Shown here piece after piece: positions 21,338 to 29,373 of a stretch of 40,282 nt of DNA. The position numbers and the translations under genes were made by a program. The notes beneath the pieces are model-generated. The model searched no databases, was not told the origin of the DNA, and saw only the letters and a list, made by a program, of their open reading frames with translations. Source of the stretch: Pseudomonadota bacterium (GTDB lineage: Bacteria > Pseudomonadota > Alphaproteobacteria > Rickettsiales > UBA3002); NCBI GenBank assembly GCA_963205305.1, contig CAUJIC010000080.1, forward strand, positions 1 through 40,282, given 5' to 3'. How positions within the stretch are numbered: position 1 is the first letter of the stretch; every line of letters begins with the position of its first letter.

Positions 21338-22492
21338 ATGAAGGTTGAGCTACTGCAATGGACAGCCGCGGCTGGGTGGAATACCAAGCCAAAGCTCTCC
21401 ACTGCGGCGCTCGTGATTTATTTTGGGGAACGAGCGGCGCTTCAATCCAGCCAATGCTATACCACGCTGCGTTCGTTTTACCCACAGGCACATATTGTCG
21501 GCTGTAGCACAGGTGGCGAGATTTATGGTGCAGATGTTCTCGATAATAGTATCAGCGTCAGCGCCATCCATTTTGACCAAACACCGCTGCGCACAGCCTT
21601 CACCACCGTGAACACTGCCGCTGATTCCTTTACTGCGGGCACGGCACTTGCTCAACAATTGAACCAGCCCGATTTACGCTATGTGCTGGTATTGTCGGAT
21701 GGTACGAACGTCAATGGCAGCGACCTTATTCGCGGCCTCTACAGTGTTCTCGACGAGCGCGTGATCGTAACGGGTGGCCTTGCAGGCGATGGGGCAGATT
21801 TTAAGCATACTACCGTCGGCCTAGATGGCGAACCTGCCGCCAAGCAAATCGTTGCCATCGGATTTTACGGCGAGGCACTACAGATTGGTTATGGCAGTGT
21901 GGGGGGATGGCGAACGTTTGGCCCCACTTGGACAATCACCCGATCAGACAGTAACATCCTCTACGAGCTGGATGGCAAACCTGCACTCGACCTCTACAAG
22001 ATATATCTTGGTGATGCCGCACTACAATTACCCAAAAATGCATTACTCTTCCCGTTCAACATGCGTTCCGATGCCAATTCCGAACATGATATTGTGCGCA
22101 CCATTGTCGGCGTGGATGAAGCCACAAAAAGCCTCGTCTTCGCAGGTGATGTGCCTGAAGGATCGATTGTTCGCCTCATGCGTGGCGAATTCAACCACTT
22201 AATCGAGGGCGCTGCAAACGCCGCCACCCTTGCAAACCAAAAGGTTCCTGCATCTGAGTCACTGGCCATCTTGGTTAGCTGCATTGGCCGCAAGCTGTTG
22301 CTTGGTATGTCGATTCACCATGAAACCCATGCCATTGCCGATATTTTCAAACACGCGGTACCTACCATCGGTTTTTATTCGTACGGTGAAATCTGCCATC
22401 AGGAATTCTCTGGCAAATGTGGTCTGCACAACCAGACCATGACCGTCACTACGCTGTATGAGAGCTCATCGGTGGCAGCCACCCAAAACTAG
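21338..22492 (+). CDS. Stand-alone FIST-domain sensory protein
   Basis: 384 residues covering FIST N and FIST C domains, with no attached kinase or methyl-acceptor output. FIST N hallmarks are AHIVGCSTGGEIYG and VIVTGGLAGDGA; FIST C includes ALQIGYGSVGGWRTFGP and the C-terminal GFYSYGEICH. FIST domains are proposed small-molecule (perhaps amino-acid) sensors in signalling. No signal peptide, so cytoplasmic. It begins 22 bp after hppA with GGTAGACCC before ATG 21338, and a strong hairpin terminator follows. A functional link to PPi energetics is possible by operon position only. Confidence 0.85.
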   Translation: MKVELLQWTAAAGWNTKPKLSTAALVIYFGERAALQSSQCYTTLRSFYPQAHIVGCSTGGEIYGADVLDNSISVSAIHFDQTPLRTAFTTVNTAADSFTAGTALAQQLNQPDLRYVLVLSDGTNVNGSDLIRGLYSVLDERVIVTGGLAGDGADFKHTTVGLDGEPAAKQIVAIGFYGEALQIGYGSVGGWRTFGPTWTITRSDSNILYELDGKPALDLYKIYLGDAALQLPKNALLFPFNMRSDANSEHDIVRTIVGVDEATKSLVFAGDVPEGSIVRLMRGEFNHLIEGAANAATLANQKVPASESLAILVSCIGRKLLLGMSIHHETHAIADIFKHAVPTIGFYSYGEICHQEFSGKCGLHNQTMTVTTLYESSSVAATQN

Positions 22493-23409: not shown

Positions 23410-23444
23410 AAGCACATACTTAGACCCATTTTTTGGATTCTCCA

Positions 23445-25280
23445 ATGCTTCGTTTGCTGATGGTTATAGGTGTACTGGGCTGGGCGTTGCCGACGCAGGC
23501 CGCCGATATTTCCAATACCTTCGCCCAGTGGCAACGCCTGCGTGACCCTGCCACCATCAGCGTAAGTTTTATCGAAGGCGCGAGCTTCCTCTACGAGTTC
23601 CCCAATTGGCCCGATGAAAACACCATCCGCCTGCGTACCGAGGCAGCGGCGCTTTATGAGCGCCCAAGCAACGAGCTGATGAGTAAATTCTGTACCGATT
23701 TCCCGCCCATTTCGGGGCGTGGCATGGTGGCATGCGCCAGCAACGGCGTGAGTGATAAAGCGAAGCAAACCGCATGGGTTAAACAAGGCTGGGCACAAGG
23801 CGATTTCAACGAGGATGAAGAACAGCGCATTTTGAAAGCGTATGATGGCACCCTCACCAGTGCCGACCACGCCGCACGTGCCGAGCGTTTGCTGTACGAA
23901 GGCAGGCTCGGCGCAGCCAAACGCGCTATTGCACTTGCCCCTGCCGATAAGCGCAAACTCTATGCGGTGCGTGTGGCACTCATCGCGGGCGATAAAAAAG
24001 CCCCCGCACTGCTCAAAACATTAAGCGCTGCCCAGCAACGCGAAGCGGGAATTTTATTCGACCGCGCCCGCTGGCAAATCCGCCGTGGCAGCGACAGCTA
24101 TGCCGACCTTGTCGCCGCCGCGCCTGCCGATGCGCCCTACGCCAATTTGTGGTGGCCGTTGCGCCTGCGCGCCGCGCGCGAAGCTATCAGCACCCGCAAC
24201 TATACCCGCGCGTTAGCGCTTGTTTCGCACCATGGGCAAATCGATGATGACGAAGATATGGCCGAAGCCTTGTGGCTTAAGGGGTGGCTGCTGCTGCGCC
24301 ATCGTGGCGATGCGGGCGGGGCGTATAAGGAATTCTTCAAACTCTATACCACCACCAGCACCCCGGTCAGCAAGGCACGTGCCGCTTATTGGGCGGGGCG
24401 CGCCGCCGAGAAAAATGGCAACCGCAGCATCGCCCGCGATTGGATGGAAAAAGCCGCCGAGCGCCCCACGGTGTTTTATGGCCAGTTGGCACAAAGCTGG
24501 CTGAAGCCCAAATCGACACTCGAGCTGCCAAAGGCGCCGCGCGCTAGTGATGCCGAGGAAAAACAATTCGATGCGAACCCGCTCATACGCACTGCAAAAT
24601 TGATTGATGCCTCGAATGGCGATAGCCAGCTGCGCGACCGCTTCATTTCGGCGGCGGCAAAACGCCTAAGCGATGGACAACTTGGCTTACTTGCCGAGTT
24701 CGCGAAAAAAATTGGTGGCACAGCTACAGGGGTCGAGGTTGCAAAGCTGGCACTGCGCAAAGGCGTGGCTCTCATCCCCCATGGTTGGCCGCGCACCAGA
24801 CTGCCCGATAATTTACCCATAGAACCTGCCCTTGCCCTAGCCATTACACGGCAAGAAAGCCAGTTTAACCCTACTGCACGCAGCCCTGCCAACGCACAGG
24901 GGCTTATGCAGCTTTTGCCGACGACTGCCAAGCATGTGGCTAAAGGGTTGGGCATGAAGTTCGAGCGCAATATGCTCAATGAACCCAATACTAACCTCAC
25001 CCTTGGCTCACGCTATTTGGGGCAAATGATCGCAGGATTTGATGGATCCTACATCCTTGGCATCGCTAGTTATAATGCAGGACCCGGCAATGTTCGTAGC
25101 TGGATAAAAACCATGGGTATGCCCCCCAAGAAGCTGGATGCCGCGATTGATTGGATTGAATCCGTCCCCTTCACCGAAACGCGCAATTACATTATGCGTG
25201 TTCATGAAAATCTGGGTGTATACCGCACACTCGCCGATGATAGCACGCCACTAATGATCGAAAAAGACTTGGTGCGCTAA
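23445..25280 (+). CDS. Soluble lytic murein transglycosylase, Slt family 1
   Basis: Cleaves the MurNAc-GlcNAc bond of peptidoglycan with 1,6-anhydro formation. 611 residues. A signal peptide (MLRLLMVIGVLGWALPTQA) precedes a helical superhelix domain of several hundred residues made of TPR-like helices, then a C-terminal lysozyme-like domain. Its catalytic Glu471 lies in TRQESQFNPTARS, followed by GLMQLLPTTAKHVA and ASYNAGPGNVRSW. The shape is that of E. coli Slt70. It may serve wall turnover or make gaps for envelope machines. ATG 23445 is 35 bp from the divergent nnrD start. Confidence 0.93.
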   Translation: MLRLLMVIGVLGWALPTQAADISNTFAQWQRLRDPATISVSFIEGASFLYEFPNWPDENTIRLRTEAAALYERPSNELMSKFCTDFPPISGRGMVACASNGVSDKAKQTAWVKQGWAQGDFNEDEEQRILKAYDGTLTSADHAARAERLLYEGRLGAAKRAIALAPADKRKLYAVRVALIAGDKKAPALLKTLSAAQQREAGILFDRARWQIRRGSDSYADLVAAAPADAPYANLWWPLRLRAAREAISTRNYTRALALVSHHGQIDDDEDMAEALWLKGWLLLRHRGDAGGAYKEFFKLYTTTSTPVSKARAAYWAGRAAEKNGNRSIARDWMEKAAERPTVFYGQLAQSWLKPKSTLELPKAPRASDAEEKQFDANPLIRTAKLIDASNGDSQLRDRFISAAAKRLSDGQLGLLAEFAKKIGGTATGVEVAKLALRKGVALIPHGWPRTRLPDNLPIEPALALAITRQESQFNPTARSPANAQGLMQLLPTTAKHVAKGLGMKFERNMLNEPNTNLTLGSRYLGQMIAGFDGSYILGIASYNAGPGNVRSWIKTMGMPPKKLDAAIDWIESVPFTETRNYIMRVHENLGVYRTLADDSTPLMIEKDLVR

Positions 25281-25652: not shown

Positions 25653-26786
25653 ATGAAGGTCACATCCCCAATGCCCCCCACTCGCTATAAGTATGCCGAG
25701 TATTTCCAACGCTATCGAATGGAAATACTGCTGGTGGCAATGCTGGTCATTCTCCCCAATGGTATGTTTGCCTACACCCTTCCTGCTTGGCCTATCGCAC
25801 AGCTTGTAGTGGTATGGTCTTCCCTAAATATACTTGTAATCGCTGCCCTATACGTCTTGCACCAATGGTTACTGATACCCCTTCACTCGATAGCACACCA
25901 ACTGCACCAGCTTCGTACTACCTACAACGAAGAGACTAGCTTTGGCGTAACTTCTCCGCTGCAAATTACCCGTATTGCGGGTGAGGTTGGCCGATTTATT
26001 GGCTTTGCGCGCGAACAATACCGTAAACATACTGAAACCCTTCAGGAACTTGAACAATCACGACATATTATTGCCCAATTCGCGATGGAGCAGGAAACCC
26101 TGCTGACCAGCACTAATCGCGAGATAGCCATACAATATCGTTCGGTTCTCTCGTATGCGAATTACCTTGAAGAGCAAATCACCACCAATAAGCTCGACCC
26201 CAGCATACGTTATGACCTTGATGATGTCTGTGAATCAAGCTTCAATCTTAAGCTCATCGCGGGGGCGCTTAGCATGCTAAGCCATGGGCGTATGCCCGAG
26301 CTTAGCAATGTGCCCCTTGCCCCGCTGCTGCAACAGACCATGCTTGCCCTCGCCCCCGCACTCGACCGACGAAGCATGAAGCTCACCACAGCGGAGGTGG
26401 ATATGTCAGTTGCAGCCTATGGCCATGGGGGAACCCTCGCCCATATTCTATGGATGATGCTACTGGGCATGGTTCGTTATGCCGCCGATGAAAGCACCCT
26501 TCGTATCCGTAGTCTCTATAGCCGTGATGGCACACAGGCTATGATGAGCATTGTGGTCAGCGAATTATCTGCAGGACGCATGACTGAGGATGAACGAGAG
26601 GAACATCTAATCCGCCAATTGCAACACCTTACCCCGCCCATGTTCGCTGAGACTATTCGTATCCACGCCAACGTGCAGTTGGCGGATTTGCTGATTCAAC
26701 GTTTAGGCGGGCTGATTCATGTGCAAGCACTTACTACTACCTCGTGCGAGGTATGCGTTAACCTTCCCTCGGCGAAAATAGATTAA
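25653..26786 (+). CDS. Membrane histidine-kinase-like pseudokinase without phospho-acceptor His
   Basis: 377 residues. Two hydrophobic segments (about 24-42 and 48-70) run into a HAMP-like linker (LIPLHSIAHQLHQL) and a helix (about 115-150). Then comes a two-helix DHp-like domain: where kinases have SHELRTPL this reads NREIAIQY, with Arg156 at the position of the phosphorylated His. The helix hairpin (IRYDLDDVCESSFNLKLI, ALSMLSHGR) looks kinase-like. The C-terminal part resembles an ATPase domain, but the N-box reads ILWMMLLGMVRYA and I find no DxGxG. It is probably a scaffold or a phosphotransfer-dead regulator. It lies next to pleD-divK and has a CtrA box upstream. Confidence 0.72.
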   Translation: MKVTSPMPPTRYKYAEYFQRYRMEILLVAMLVILPNGMFAYTLPAWPIAQLVVVWSSLNILVIAALYVLHQWLLIPLHSIAHQLHQLRTTYNEETSFGVTSPLQITRIAGEVGRFIGFAREQYRKHTETLQELEQSRHIIAQFAMEQETLLTSTNREIAIQYRSVLSYANYLEEQITTNKLDPSIRYDLDDVCESSFNLKLIAGALSMLSHGRMPELSNVPLAPLLQQTMLALAPALDRRSMKLTTAEVDMSVAAYGHGGTLAHILWMMLLGMVRYAADESTLRIRSLYSRDGTQAMMSIVVSELSAGRMTEDEREEHLIRQLQHLTPPMFAETIRIHANVQLADLLIQRLGGLIHVQALTTTSCEVCVNLPSAKID

Positions 26787-26891
26787 ATACCAGCTGTTAA
26801 AATCAGTTTCGCATCACCATGATTGGCTATAGTCTGCGTTAGTTAGTTCATTTGTTTGTTCATATTTCACCCTTAAATAGGAGCCTACCCA

Positions 26892-27263
26892 ATGAAAAAG
26901 ATGACACTTTATTCGCTCAGCCTGATTTCTGCCTTTGCCGCAACGAGCGCCTTTGCAACAGAAGCGCCAACACCACCCGTAGGTGAAAAAAATCAAGCCG
27001 AAAAGAAACTTAACGAAAACGATACCAACAACGATGGCTTCATCTCGAGAGATGAATGGCGCACGAAAGGCGACCAAGTATTTGGTGAAATAGACACCGA
27101 TAAAGACGGAAAACTGAGCAAAGATGAACGTAAATCCCATCACGAAAAGAAACGCGCTGAATGGAAAGAGCGCCGGGAAGACCGCAGAGAAAAGATGGGG
27201 AAAATGAAGGAAAAAATGTCGGAGCGGGCCGCAGATAAGGCCGCACCAACAGAGAGCCACTAG
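26892..27263 (+). CDS. Periplasmic EF-hand calcium-binding protein
   Basis: 123 residues. The signal peptide MKKMTLYSLSLISAFAATSAFA is followed by two canonical EF-hand loops, DTNNDGFISRDE and DTDKDGKLSKDE, with all Ca2+-ligand positions filled. A long, highly charged Lys/Glu/Arg helix makes the C-terminus. The mature protein is probably periplasmic and may buffer or sense Ca2+. ATG 26892 has AGGAG about eight bases upstream. A strong bidirectional terminator follows directly. The partner protein is unknown. Confidence 0.85.
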   Translation: MKKMTLYSLSLISAFAATSAFATEAPTPPVGEKNQAEKKLNENDTNNDGFISRDEWRTKGDQVFGEIDTDKDGKLSKDERKSHHEKKRAEWKERREDRREKMGKMKEKMSERAADKAAPTESH

Positions 27264-27270
27264 CCACATT

Positions 27271-27315
27271 AAAAAAGGGTGCACATGATGAATGTGCACC
27301 CTTTTATTTTTTCTT
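27271..27315. terminator. Bidirectional Rho-independent terminator (EF-hand gene and pleD)
   Basis: Stem AGGGTGCACAT / ATGTGCACCCT with GATGA loop, flanked by A6 on the left and T-rich sequence (TTTTATTTTTTCTTTT) on the right. It ends the EF-hand gene rightwards and, with A-run pairing to T on the other strand, the pleD transcript leftwards. Confidence 0.9.
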
Positions 27316-28884
27316 TTAGAGCTTGCTCTGGTCTTTGAATTTTACCACAAACGGAAAGCCTTCGTTTTCCTTCGAATCGCTGCCTGTATCTGGGATTACT
27401 CCACTCGCACCAGGGACAGCCAGTTTAATCGTCACTTCTCCCGCAGGAACATTCGTCACACTTAATTCCTCGCGCGCGACTTGGCGGCTTGGCGGCAATT
27501 CATAGCCCGCCCCACCAACCAGCGGCAGCACTTTATTGCGTCCGGAATTCTTCGCTTCGTAGAGCGCTAAATCCGCACGCTTGAGCAATGTTTCTGGGGT
27601 ATCGTTCGGTTCCATCGTCGCATAGCCAATGCTGATGGTTTTTTTGATGGGGCTATCGGGGTGCGGAATCACAAATTCAGCATTCTCCACCTCTTTGCGT
27701 AAACGCTCGGACGCTTCATAGGCGCGCGCCGCATCAGTCTCAGGCATCAGCACCACAAATTCCTCGCCACCATAGCGCGCGGCCAAATCTGCCGAGCGGA
27801 TGATTTGAACAATGATGGCCGCCAGTGATTTCAGCACTTCATCGCCCGAGGCGTGGCCATAGGTATCGTTCACTTTTTTGAAGTGATCCATATCCATAAT
27901 CACTACCGAAAGATTACGGCCTTGCTCCGAGGCTTGGCGCACAAGGTTTTTCAAGTGGGTATCGAGGTAATGGCGGTTATAGAGCTTGGTCAGGCCATCC
28001 GTCACCGCCATGCTCACCGATTCTTGATAATTCGATTTCAGCGCTTCCTGATATTTCTTCCGGCGAATTTGGGTTTTAATGCGCGCGAACATCTCGTTGA
28101 AATCCACAGGCGTCAGCAAATAATCGTTCACGCCCAGCTCAAGCCCCTTCAGCATCAAATGCTGCTCGTCTTCATCCACCAACATGATGATGGGAACATG
28201 GCGCGCCTGTTCAATAGCTTTAAATTGCGTGGCAAGGCGCAAACCATCCATATCCGCCAGTTGCGTGGAGATGAGAATGAGGTCGAGCGCCGAATTATCG
28301 CGTGCATATTCCAGCGCTTCTTTGTGGTCGCTGAAATGGCTGAGTTTATAGCCACCCGCCACCAGTTTTTCGGTGATACGGCGCACCTGCACCACATCAT
28401 CATCGATCAGCATCAGGTTGCTGCCCGTTACATCGAGGTTGAGCGAGTAATCGCTCGCGCTCATACCAAGCTGGCTGCCCGATTTATCGCGCAAGCGCAG
28501 CTCATCGATAAGAACCTTGATACGTACTAGCGAGCGCACGCGCGCAAACAGCGCAGTATCGTTAATGGGTTTGGTGATGAAATCATCCGCCCCTGCCTCT
28601 AGTCCCGCCACGCGATCGGAGGGGTCGGAAAGCGCGGTCACCATCACCACAGGGATGTGCGACACTTCAGGGTCTTGCTTCAAACGGCGGCAGGCCTCGA
28701 ACCCATCAATCCCTGGCATCATCACATCGAGCAGAATCAGATCAGGTTTTTTTGCCTTGGTTTGCTCAATCGCCTCGAAGCCATCCTTGGCGGTGATGAC
28801 ATCGTAATATTCGTTCGTCAGCTTCGCTTCGAGCAACTTAATGTTCGCAGGCACATCATCCACAACTAACACTAATCCAGTCAC
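27316..28884 (-). CDS. pleD: PleD-type diguanylate cyclase response regulator
   Basis: Makes c-di-GMP on phosphorylation; in Caulobacter PleD drives the swarmer-to-stalked transition. 522 residues: REC1 with phospho-acceptor Asp53 (LILLDVMMPG); REC2 lacking it (LILISTQL, Ser instead of Asp), as in other PleD proteins where it serves as a dimerisation adaptor; and a GGDEF domain with active GGEEF at 372-376 and the inhibitory I-site RSAD at 363-366. The C-terminus extends about 70 residues past the domain with a Pro/Ser-rich stretch and a short FPFVVKFKDQ. Starts 10 bp downstream of the divK stop, so the two form one operon. Confidence 0.95.
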   Translation of the reverse strand: MTGLVLVVDDVPANIKLLEAKLTNEYYDVITAKDGFEAIEQTKAKKPDLILLDVMMPGIDGFEACRRLKQDPEVSHIPVVMVTALSDPSDRVAGLEAGADDFITKPINDTALFARVRSLVRIKVLIDELRLRDKSGSQLGMSASDYSLNLDVTGSNLMLIDDDVVQVRRITEKLVAGGYKLSHFSDHKEALEYARDNSALDLILISTQLADMDGLRLATQFKAIEQARHVPIIMLVDEDEQHLMLKGLELGVNDYLLTPVDFNEMFARIKTQIRRKKYQEALKSNYQESVSMAVTDGLTKLYNRHYLDTHLKNLVRQASEQGRNLSVVIMDMDHFKKVNDTYGHASGDEVLKSLAAIIVQIIRSADLAARYGGEEFVVLMPETDAARAYEASERLRKEVENAEFVIPHPDSPIKKTISIGYATMEPNDTPETLLKRADLALYEAKNSGRNKVLPLVGGAGYELPPSRQVAREELSVTNVPAGEVTIKLAVPGASGVIPDTGSDSKENEGFPFVVKFKDQSKL

Positions 28885-28893
28885 GCTCTACCC

Positions 28894-29277
28894 CTATGCC
28901 GATACGCTTTGCGGCTCTAAAAACCGACGAATCGTACTCAAAAATACATCAATGGCGATGGGCTTGCTTAGGTAAGCCTCGCACCCCGCCGCTAAAATCT
29001 TGTCCTCATCATCCTTCATCGCGAAGGCGGTTACTGCAATCACAGGAATATGCTTAATCGCTGCATCTGCCTTGATTTTTCGGGTAATATCGAGCCCTGA
29101 AATTTCGGGCAGCTGAATATCCATCACAATCAAATCGGGCATCACGTTACGCGTCAGGCTAATGGCTTCGATCCCCTCTTTTGTCTCGAACGTCAGGTAG
29201 CCATTCGCGCCCAGAAGGTCGCGAAAAAGCTTCAAGTTCAGGTCGTTATCCTCGACAATGAGTATCTTTTTGGCCAT
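28894..29277 (-). CDS. divK: Single-domain response regulator DivK
   Basis: Cell-fate regulator that, phosphorylated, controls the DivL-CckA-CtrA path and also PleC/DivJ signalling. 127 residues, a bare REC domain. It has Asp53 (IVMDIQLPE), acidic Glu9/Asp10, Thr in AVTAFAM and Lys in LSKP. The stretch IQLPEISGLDITRKIK and the AVTAFAMKDDEDKI segment match Caulobacter DivK closely. ATG 29277; an AGGAG lies a little far (12 bases) upstream. First gene of divK-pleD. Confidence 0.95.
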   Translation of the reverse strand: MAKKILIVEDNDLNLKLFRDLLGANGYLTFETKEGIEAISLTRNVMPDLIVMDIQLPEISGLDITRKIKADAAIKHIPVIAVTAFAMKDDEDKILAAGCEAYLSKPIAIDVFLSTIRRFLEPQSVSA

Positions 29278-29373
29278 AGGCAGCGTATTCTCCTGTGCTG
29301 CCCCAATATAATGGTTTATTTGGCAATTACCACGAAAATTCATAGCGCTGTGTGCAGCATTTGCCCAGTGCCG

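Follow-up and report, generated by a model that had tools for sequence, protein, structure and literature searches.

Caulobacter DivL, an atypical kinase of the DivK/PleD circuit, has Tyr in place of His. To our knowledge, few naturally conserved pseudo-histidine-kinases have been described, with DivL as the textbook example. The DNA analyzed here, a contig stretch of 40,282 nucleotides from a bacterium of the Rickettsiales (UBA3002) and referred to in its full length as the window, contains a gene for a membrane protein that resembles a histidine kinase, has Arg at the His position and lies next to pleD and divK. A first-pass annotation, made from the letters alone, suggested that this pseudo-histidine-kinase (PK) could be a second regulator of DivK or PleD. 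This raises the question of what is left of a kinase in PK, and whether its position ties it to that circuit.

Architecture and predicted fold of PK

The PK gene (25653–26786, + strand) starts with ATG, encodes 377 residues and is present in a single copy in the source genome. Kyte-Doolittle analysis places two membrane helices in the protein with few residues in between, at residues 25–43 (25725–25781, +) and 51–69 (25803–25859, +). The AF2 model contains a helix at residues 11–41 for the first and reproduces the second, which is followed by a linker with P76. A Pfam search at E ≤ 10 gives no match for PK, HAMP included, and this linker is therefore called HAMP-like only. The protein would be filed as hypothetical. 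A search of NCBIfam gives a weak PhoQ match (2e-4) to the membrane/linker part.

The AF2 model was obtained from a 14-row family alignment without templates and has a mean pLDDT of 80 and a pTM of 0.59. Two predicted helices form a DHp hairpin: helix 1 (residues 105–177; 25965–26183, +), for which PDB matches agree with the model, and helix 2 (residues 183–210; 26199–26282, +). The α/β domain that follows (residues 218–373; 26304–26771, +) has the strand and helix order of a kinase CA domain and is assigned, from the model and its PDB matches, to the Bergerat fold, with the ATP boxes missing. Foldseek aligns the model to 341 PDB chains at E ≤ 0.001, reaching 4e-12, and the best 50 of the 341 are all of histidine-kinase type, comprising kinases, phytochromes and the kinase-derived LvrB. 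RetS structures are also found among the PDB matches.

VIA-align 2 ranks DivL (PDB 4q20) first, with a Z of 17.5 over 213 residues and an rmsd of 4.3. Rows within 1 Z unit are counted as ties, and VanS, ThkA and CusS tie with DivL, so the fold indicates a histidine kinase core rather than DivL. The top solved-structure match by sequence profile, a KDO transferase (0.004), is unrelated and chance-like. The membrane kinase-like protein proposed by the first-pass annotation is thus borne out by the hydropathy profile and by the AF2 fold. Both the DHp hairpin and the Bergerat-type domain that this proposal implied are present in what is a predicted model and not a solved structure.

Loss of the catalytic motifs

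With an E of 3e-5, BLASTP aligns PK to L014, a kinase from the same order that has an intact motif (SHELRTPM). TNREI lies on MSHEL in this alignment, which puts R156 (26118–26120, +) at the position of the acceptor His, where it had been placed by eye. In the same alignment M268 falls on the first N-box Asn and G272 (26466–26468, +) on the second; the region of DxGxG reads SELSAG by eye.

The family alignment extends these losses to the relatives. At the acceptor position its 13 rows have R, R, R, R, Q, G, S, R, S, D, T, A and S; L061 adds a further D, and none of the 13 has His. One caveat concerns a single row, that of the distant member L008 (G010), where the alignment is gapped at the acceptor and a His stands in the preceding column. 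The column varies freely, and Arg is one of the residues that such an unconstrained site can have: the first-pass annotation was right that the His is gone, but the Arg itself is not conserved. The Glu beside the acceptor position is mostly kept. The Arg at His+3 and the Pro at His+5 are lost in all rows, and the phosphatase residue at His+4 (Thr/Asn) is kept in one row only, as Thr in L003. Most members retain a Tyr at His+12, and their residues at His+8 and His+11 are small. The N-box columns contain M, L, A, G or S at 268 and G, L or T at 272, with Asn at neither, and DxGxG is found in no row, which confirms the reported absence of both ATP-site motifs. PK therefore has neither the His in an HE motif nor the N-box Asn and DxGxG of an active HisKA kinase.

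Another His as acceptor is rejected by the same alignment. The DHp has no conserved His, and the sole well-conserved one, H338, is located in the CA domain, so no intact His motif turns up elsewhere in the protein.

Kinase ancestry remains detectable. Family members match the models of PnpS, PhoR and VanS, at best at 1.5e-6, and a class-wide search with the family profile yields kinases, at 1e-11 to 1e-19, whose SHELRTP or SHEIRTP motif is intact. The class-wide matches that were read, L094 not among them, are ordinary kinases and were rejected as PK relatives outside the order. Most matches from a viral library searched with the family are ordinary histidine kinases of viruses and phages. Sequence and model together confirm PK as a membrane relative of HisKA kinases that has a coiled input helix and an apparently intact core fold but lacks the acceptor His and the ATP site, and from the missing motifs we infer that it does not autophosphorylate.

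Conservation of PK in its family

Of the 14 family genomes, 13 have a PK orthologue, and the 8 with a completeness of 90% or more are all among these 13. In the 14th genome (70% complete) a contig breaks off inside a gene whose N-terminus is Cache-type, as in a long form of PK (see below), and whose gene order is the same; position and 27% identity to the long form suggest that this fragment is PK as well. Beyond the family, PK was detected in one of 217 searched genomes of the order (G048), likewise without the His. A contig profile search with a seven-row PK alignment recovered five named MAG loci, and the public labels of PK relatives are those of uncultured alphaproteobacterial MAGs (Rickettsiales, Rhodospirillaceae or Alphaproteobacteria).

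In a tree of DHp-CA regions the 13 members form one clade (100/100), apart from the DivL and other kinases of the genome, on a branch of more than one change per site. In all 13 family genomes with PK the reading frame is open (in one it is split over two contigs), and pN/pS is 0.35–0.68, with synonymous sites near saturation. The best conserved segments by mean pairwise identity are DHp helix 1 past the His site (0.39) and DHp helix 2 (0.41), as compared with 0.25 around the His site and 0.15–0.20 in the membrane part and input helix. DHp helix 2 carries a family signature, Y-D-F-D-D-V-x-E, in which D190 and E194 are nearly invariant, and the region of the former ATP site has conserved residues of its own (R275, D279-E280, S303, H338 and N340).

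A descriptive definition of a pseudo-histidine-kinase combines the fold, conservation across species and absence of the catalytic residues, and all three are found here. On sequence comparison and the predicted fold, PK represents a clade of conserved pseudo-histidine-kinases and belongs to the core genes of its family. Acceptor His, phosphatase residue and ATP site have been lost together, yet essentially every sampled genome of the family retains the gene, which makes PK a clean subject for the study of what a kinase fold does without the chemistry.

Short and long forms

Four family members, of about 550–596 residues, and the G048 protein represent a long form with a large domain between the membrane helices. 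In three of the four this insert has a weak similarity to dCache_1 (2e-5 to 9e-4, under the Pfam cut-off), as has the contig-end fragment of G007 (4e-4), and the AF2 model of the long-form protein L009 shows a confident α/β domain at this place. The short forms, from the genus of the window and its relatives, make one clade, and the loss of the sensor domain therefore looks like one event. The older members of the family have a large Cache-like periplasmic sensor that was lost in the lineage of the window, where the input to PK would come from the membrane or from a cytoplasmic partner.

A protein of about 520 residues, with no Pfam match above chance, is encoded next to the long, Cache-bearing form in divergent orientation (L024:5499–7043, −; L025:6947–8509, −; L026:6053–7639, −; L028:8222–9784, +; L089:3462–5054, −). 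It is absent in 9 of 9 genomes with the short form. It is possibly a partner of the sensor-bearing PK, for which a distribution that reflects one evolutionary event is weak evidence.

Gene neighbourhood

PK and pleD (27316–28884, −; PleD equivalog, 621 bits) are convergent, PK ending at 26786 and pleD at 27316, and a 14-bp terminator-like hairpin (27273–27305, a consensus match only) lies between them. A divK-like gene for a single receiver domain (28894–29343, −) is adjacent to pleD. In relatives, PK closes a gyrA-argG-H-PPase-SLT-PK block, pleD closes an esterase-polA-divK-pleD block, and only in the window do the two blocks meet. About 126 kb of one contig separates PK from divK-pleD in G001, a genome of the same genus, and in the remaining genomes they are located on different contigs. 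Judging from gene order, the blocks were joined in the window by rearrangement or assembly, and the adjacency of PK to divK-pleD is a quirk of one genome. We therefore rejected it as evidence of function.

The most constant neighbour of PK in the family is an SLT lytic transglycosylase, encoded upstream in the window (23433–25280, +). The two genes do not form an operon, as a small minus-strand ORF lies in between. No response-regulator gene was found as a conserved neighbour in the gene-order comparison of the family.

Several further genes were observed around PK. An ORF of 161 codons between PK and pleD (26814–27299, −) starts within the hairpin, has no family match and is probably not a gene. 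A FIST/NosP-like protein (FIST and FIST_C; 21338–22492, +) is encoded between the H-PPase and the lytic transglycosylase of the window and is not at that place in the relatives examined. In two genomes of the same genus, unlike in the window, PK is followed by an ECF sigma factor (L017:10765–11346; L020:1719–2300), and in L020 an apparent anti-sigma factor and a CnrX-like protein come next.

Comparison with DivL, ChpT and other systems

Like Caulobacter DivL (PDB 4q20), PK has a DHp-CA fold with a replaced phospho-acceptor and no expected kinase activity. The differences are that PK has no PAS domains, has lost the whole HExRTP motif and not the His alone, has fully lost the ATP boxes and belongs to a separate clade. 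DivL retains xELRSPL around its Tyr or Ala; the corresponding stretch of PK, REIAIQY, does not.

The mutations R553A, T557N, Y562A and H579E disrupt the binding of DivK to DivL, in which the DivK-contact residues R553 and T557 are found at His+3 and His+7 (PMC4211667). PK has A159 and R163 at these positions, in columns that vary freely in the family, while the DivL of the same genome keeps both equivalents. The aromatic residue at His+12 is the only DivK-binding feature of DivL present in PK, and ordinary kinases have one too.

This DivL (SYELRSPL; L068) is a separate gene at G000:C61; another candidate for DivL, at G000:C56, turned out to be NtrB/NtrY. With a separate DivL in the genome and PK outside the DivL clade, an identity with DivL is rejected. 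ChpT is likewise a separate gene (PF10090; G000:C21:8732–9100), and PK, which has two membrane helices, no HPTransfase (PF10090) match and no His, is not ChpT, as the first-pass annotation had already judged.

With ChpT, PhyT and Spo0B, PK shares a DHp and a degenerate CA domain, but these proteins keep the phospho-acceptor His. A degenerated ATPase domain has been described for PhyP/PhyT, and PhyP has been described as membrane-anchored (PMC5898713). RetS and the ChrS pseudokinase variant are kinase-like as PK is and act by contact with another kinase; the membrane part and DHp of PK are unrelated to theirs in sequence. Layout and detectable homology connect PK to HisKA sensor kinases of the PhoR/PnpS/VanS type, from which it differs in the absence of all catalytic motifs in every member.

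Proposed role and alternatives

Our leading reading, which we hold tentatively, is that PK is a kinase-dead membrane relative of HisKA kinases that binds a partner via its conserved DHp, with a response-regulator receiver domain as the likeliest partner. Since the His and the ATP site are lost and the gene is retained family-wide, signalling probably proceeds by partner binding and not by phosphate transfer. PK would form a homodimer, would neither autophosphorylate nor dephosphorylate a regulator, and would tether or read the regulator at the membrane in the manner of DivL and DivK~P. In DivL and HK853 the DHp surface is where the dimer forms and receivers dock. It comprises the best conserved segments of PK, and catalysis has been lost in every member while the reading frame was kept. 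On the other hand, the DHp conservation could reflect dimer packing alone, the Arg at His+3 and the Pro at His+5 that most docking kinases keep are lost, and the neighbourhood offers no conserved response regulator. A precedent for a dead kinase that reads a phosphorylated regulator is DivL (PMC4211667). As the partner of PK, DivK is no likelier than other regulators. We rank receiver docking above both a mixed dimer of PK with an active kinase and a scaffold outside two-component signalling.

Alternatively, PK could pair with one of the cell's active histidine kinases in a mixed dimer and so alter the activity of that kinase, which we consider somewhat unlikely. The ChrS pseudokinase acts on HrrS (PMC9491836) and RetS on GacS (PMC12189002), the latter with structures among the PDB matches. 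The genome encodes at least 12 HisKA kinases, and the DHp hairpin through which such dimers would form is the best conserved part of PK. The PK DHp is, however, very far from those of the genome's kinases, and a mixed four-helix bundle is accordingly less likely.

It is possible, from the residues conserved there, that the region of the former ATP site has acquired a new ligand. A broader proposal, which we regard as doubtful, is that an alphaproteobacterial lineage with a small genome keeps, besides DivL, a core family of membrane pseudo-kinases with a rebuilt pocket and DHp. Such proteins would act as a phosphate-free layer that reads a regulator or a new ligand, and a second family, with a dCache sensor and Gln for His in most members, may have arrived at the same independently. 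The new conserved residues of this rebuilt core would be D190, E194, R239-R240, R275, D279-E280, S303 and N340.

A membrane scaffold without a two-component role, for instance in the cell envelope, with the kinase fold as a dimeric platform, is rather improbable. The constant lytic transglycosylase neighbour and the loss of the whole catalytic core, including motif residues that DivL keeps, are consistent with it. The minus-strand ORF that splits the two genes argues against an operon, and their synteny may be passive; the long-form relatives, moreover, keep the layout of a sensor kinase with a Cache-like periplasmic domain.

We give still less credence to the idea that PK is another DivL-like pseudokinase and controls DivK or PleD. 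It adjoins pleD-divK in the window, DivL is tied for the best structural match, and DivK, PleD, DivL and ChpT are all encoded in the genome. But this adjacency, between convergent genes of different blocks, is seen in the window alone, unrelated kinases have a structural Z within 1 of that of DivL, and PK lies outside the DivL clade without the R553 and T557 equivalents. Neither gene order nor the contact residues support the regulator suggested by the first-pass annotation, and PK does not reopen the DivK/PleD circuit.

Decay to a pseudogene, which the lost motifs and missing Pfam match might suggest, is refuted by the reading frame open in 13 of 13 genomes, the single copy, the pN/pS below 1 and several invariant non-catalytic residues.

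A second conserved pseudo-kinase family

Nearly all genomes of the family also encode another conserved group of pseudo-kinases (L079 at G000:C21:13574–15361; orthologues L075–L086). It has a dCache sensor, and its ATP boxes are largely lost. The His is replaced by Gln in most members (FFAYVGQELTEPVE) and kept in G007 (SHELMAPINAIL). These proteins form a clade of their own (99/98).
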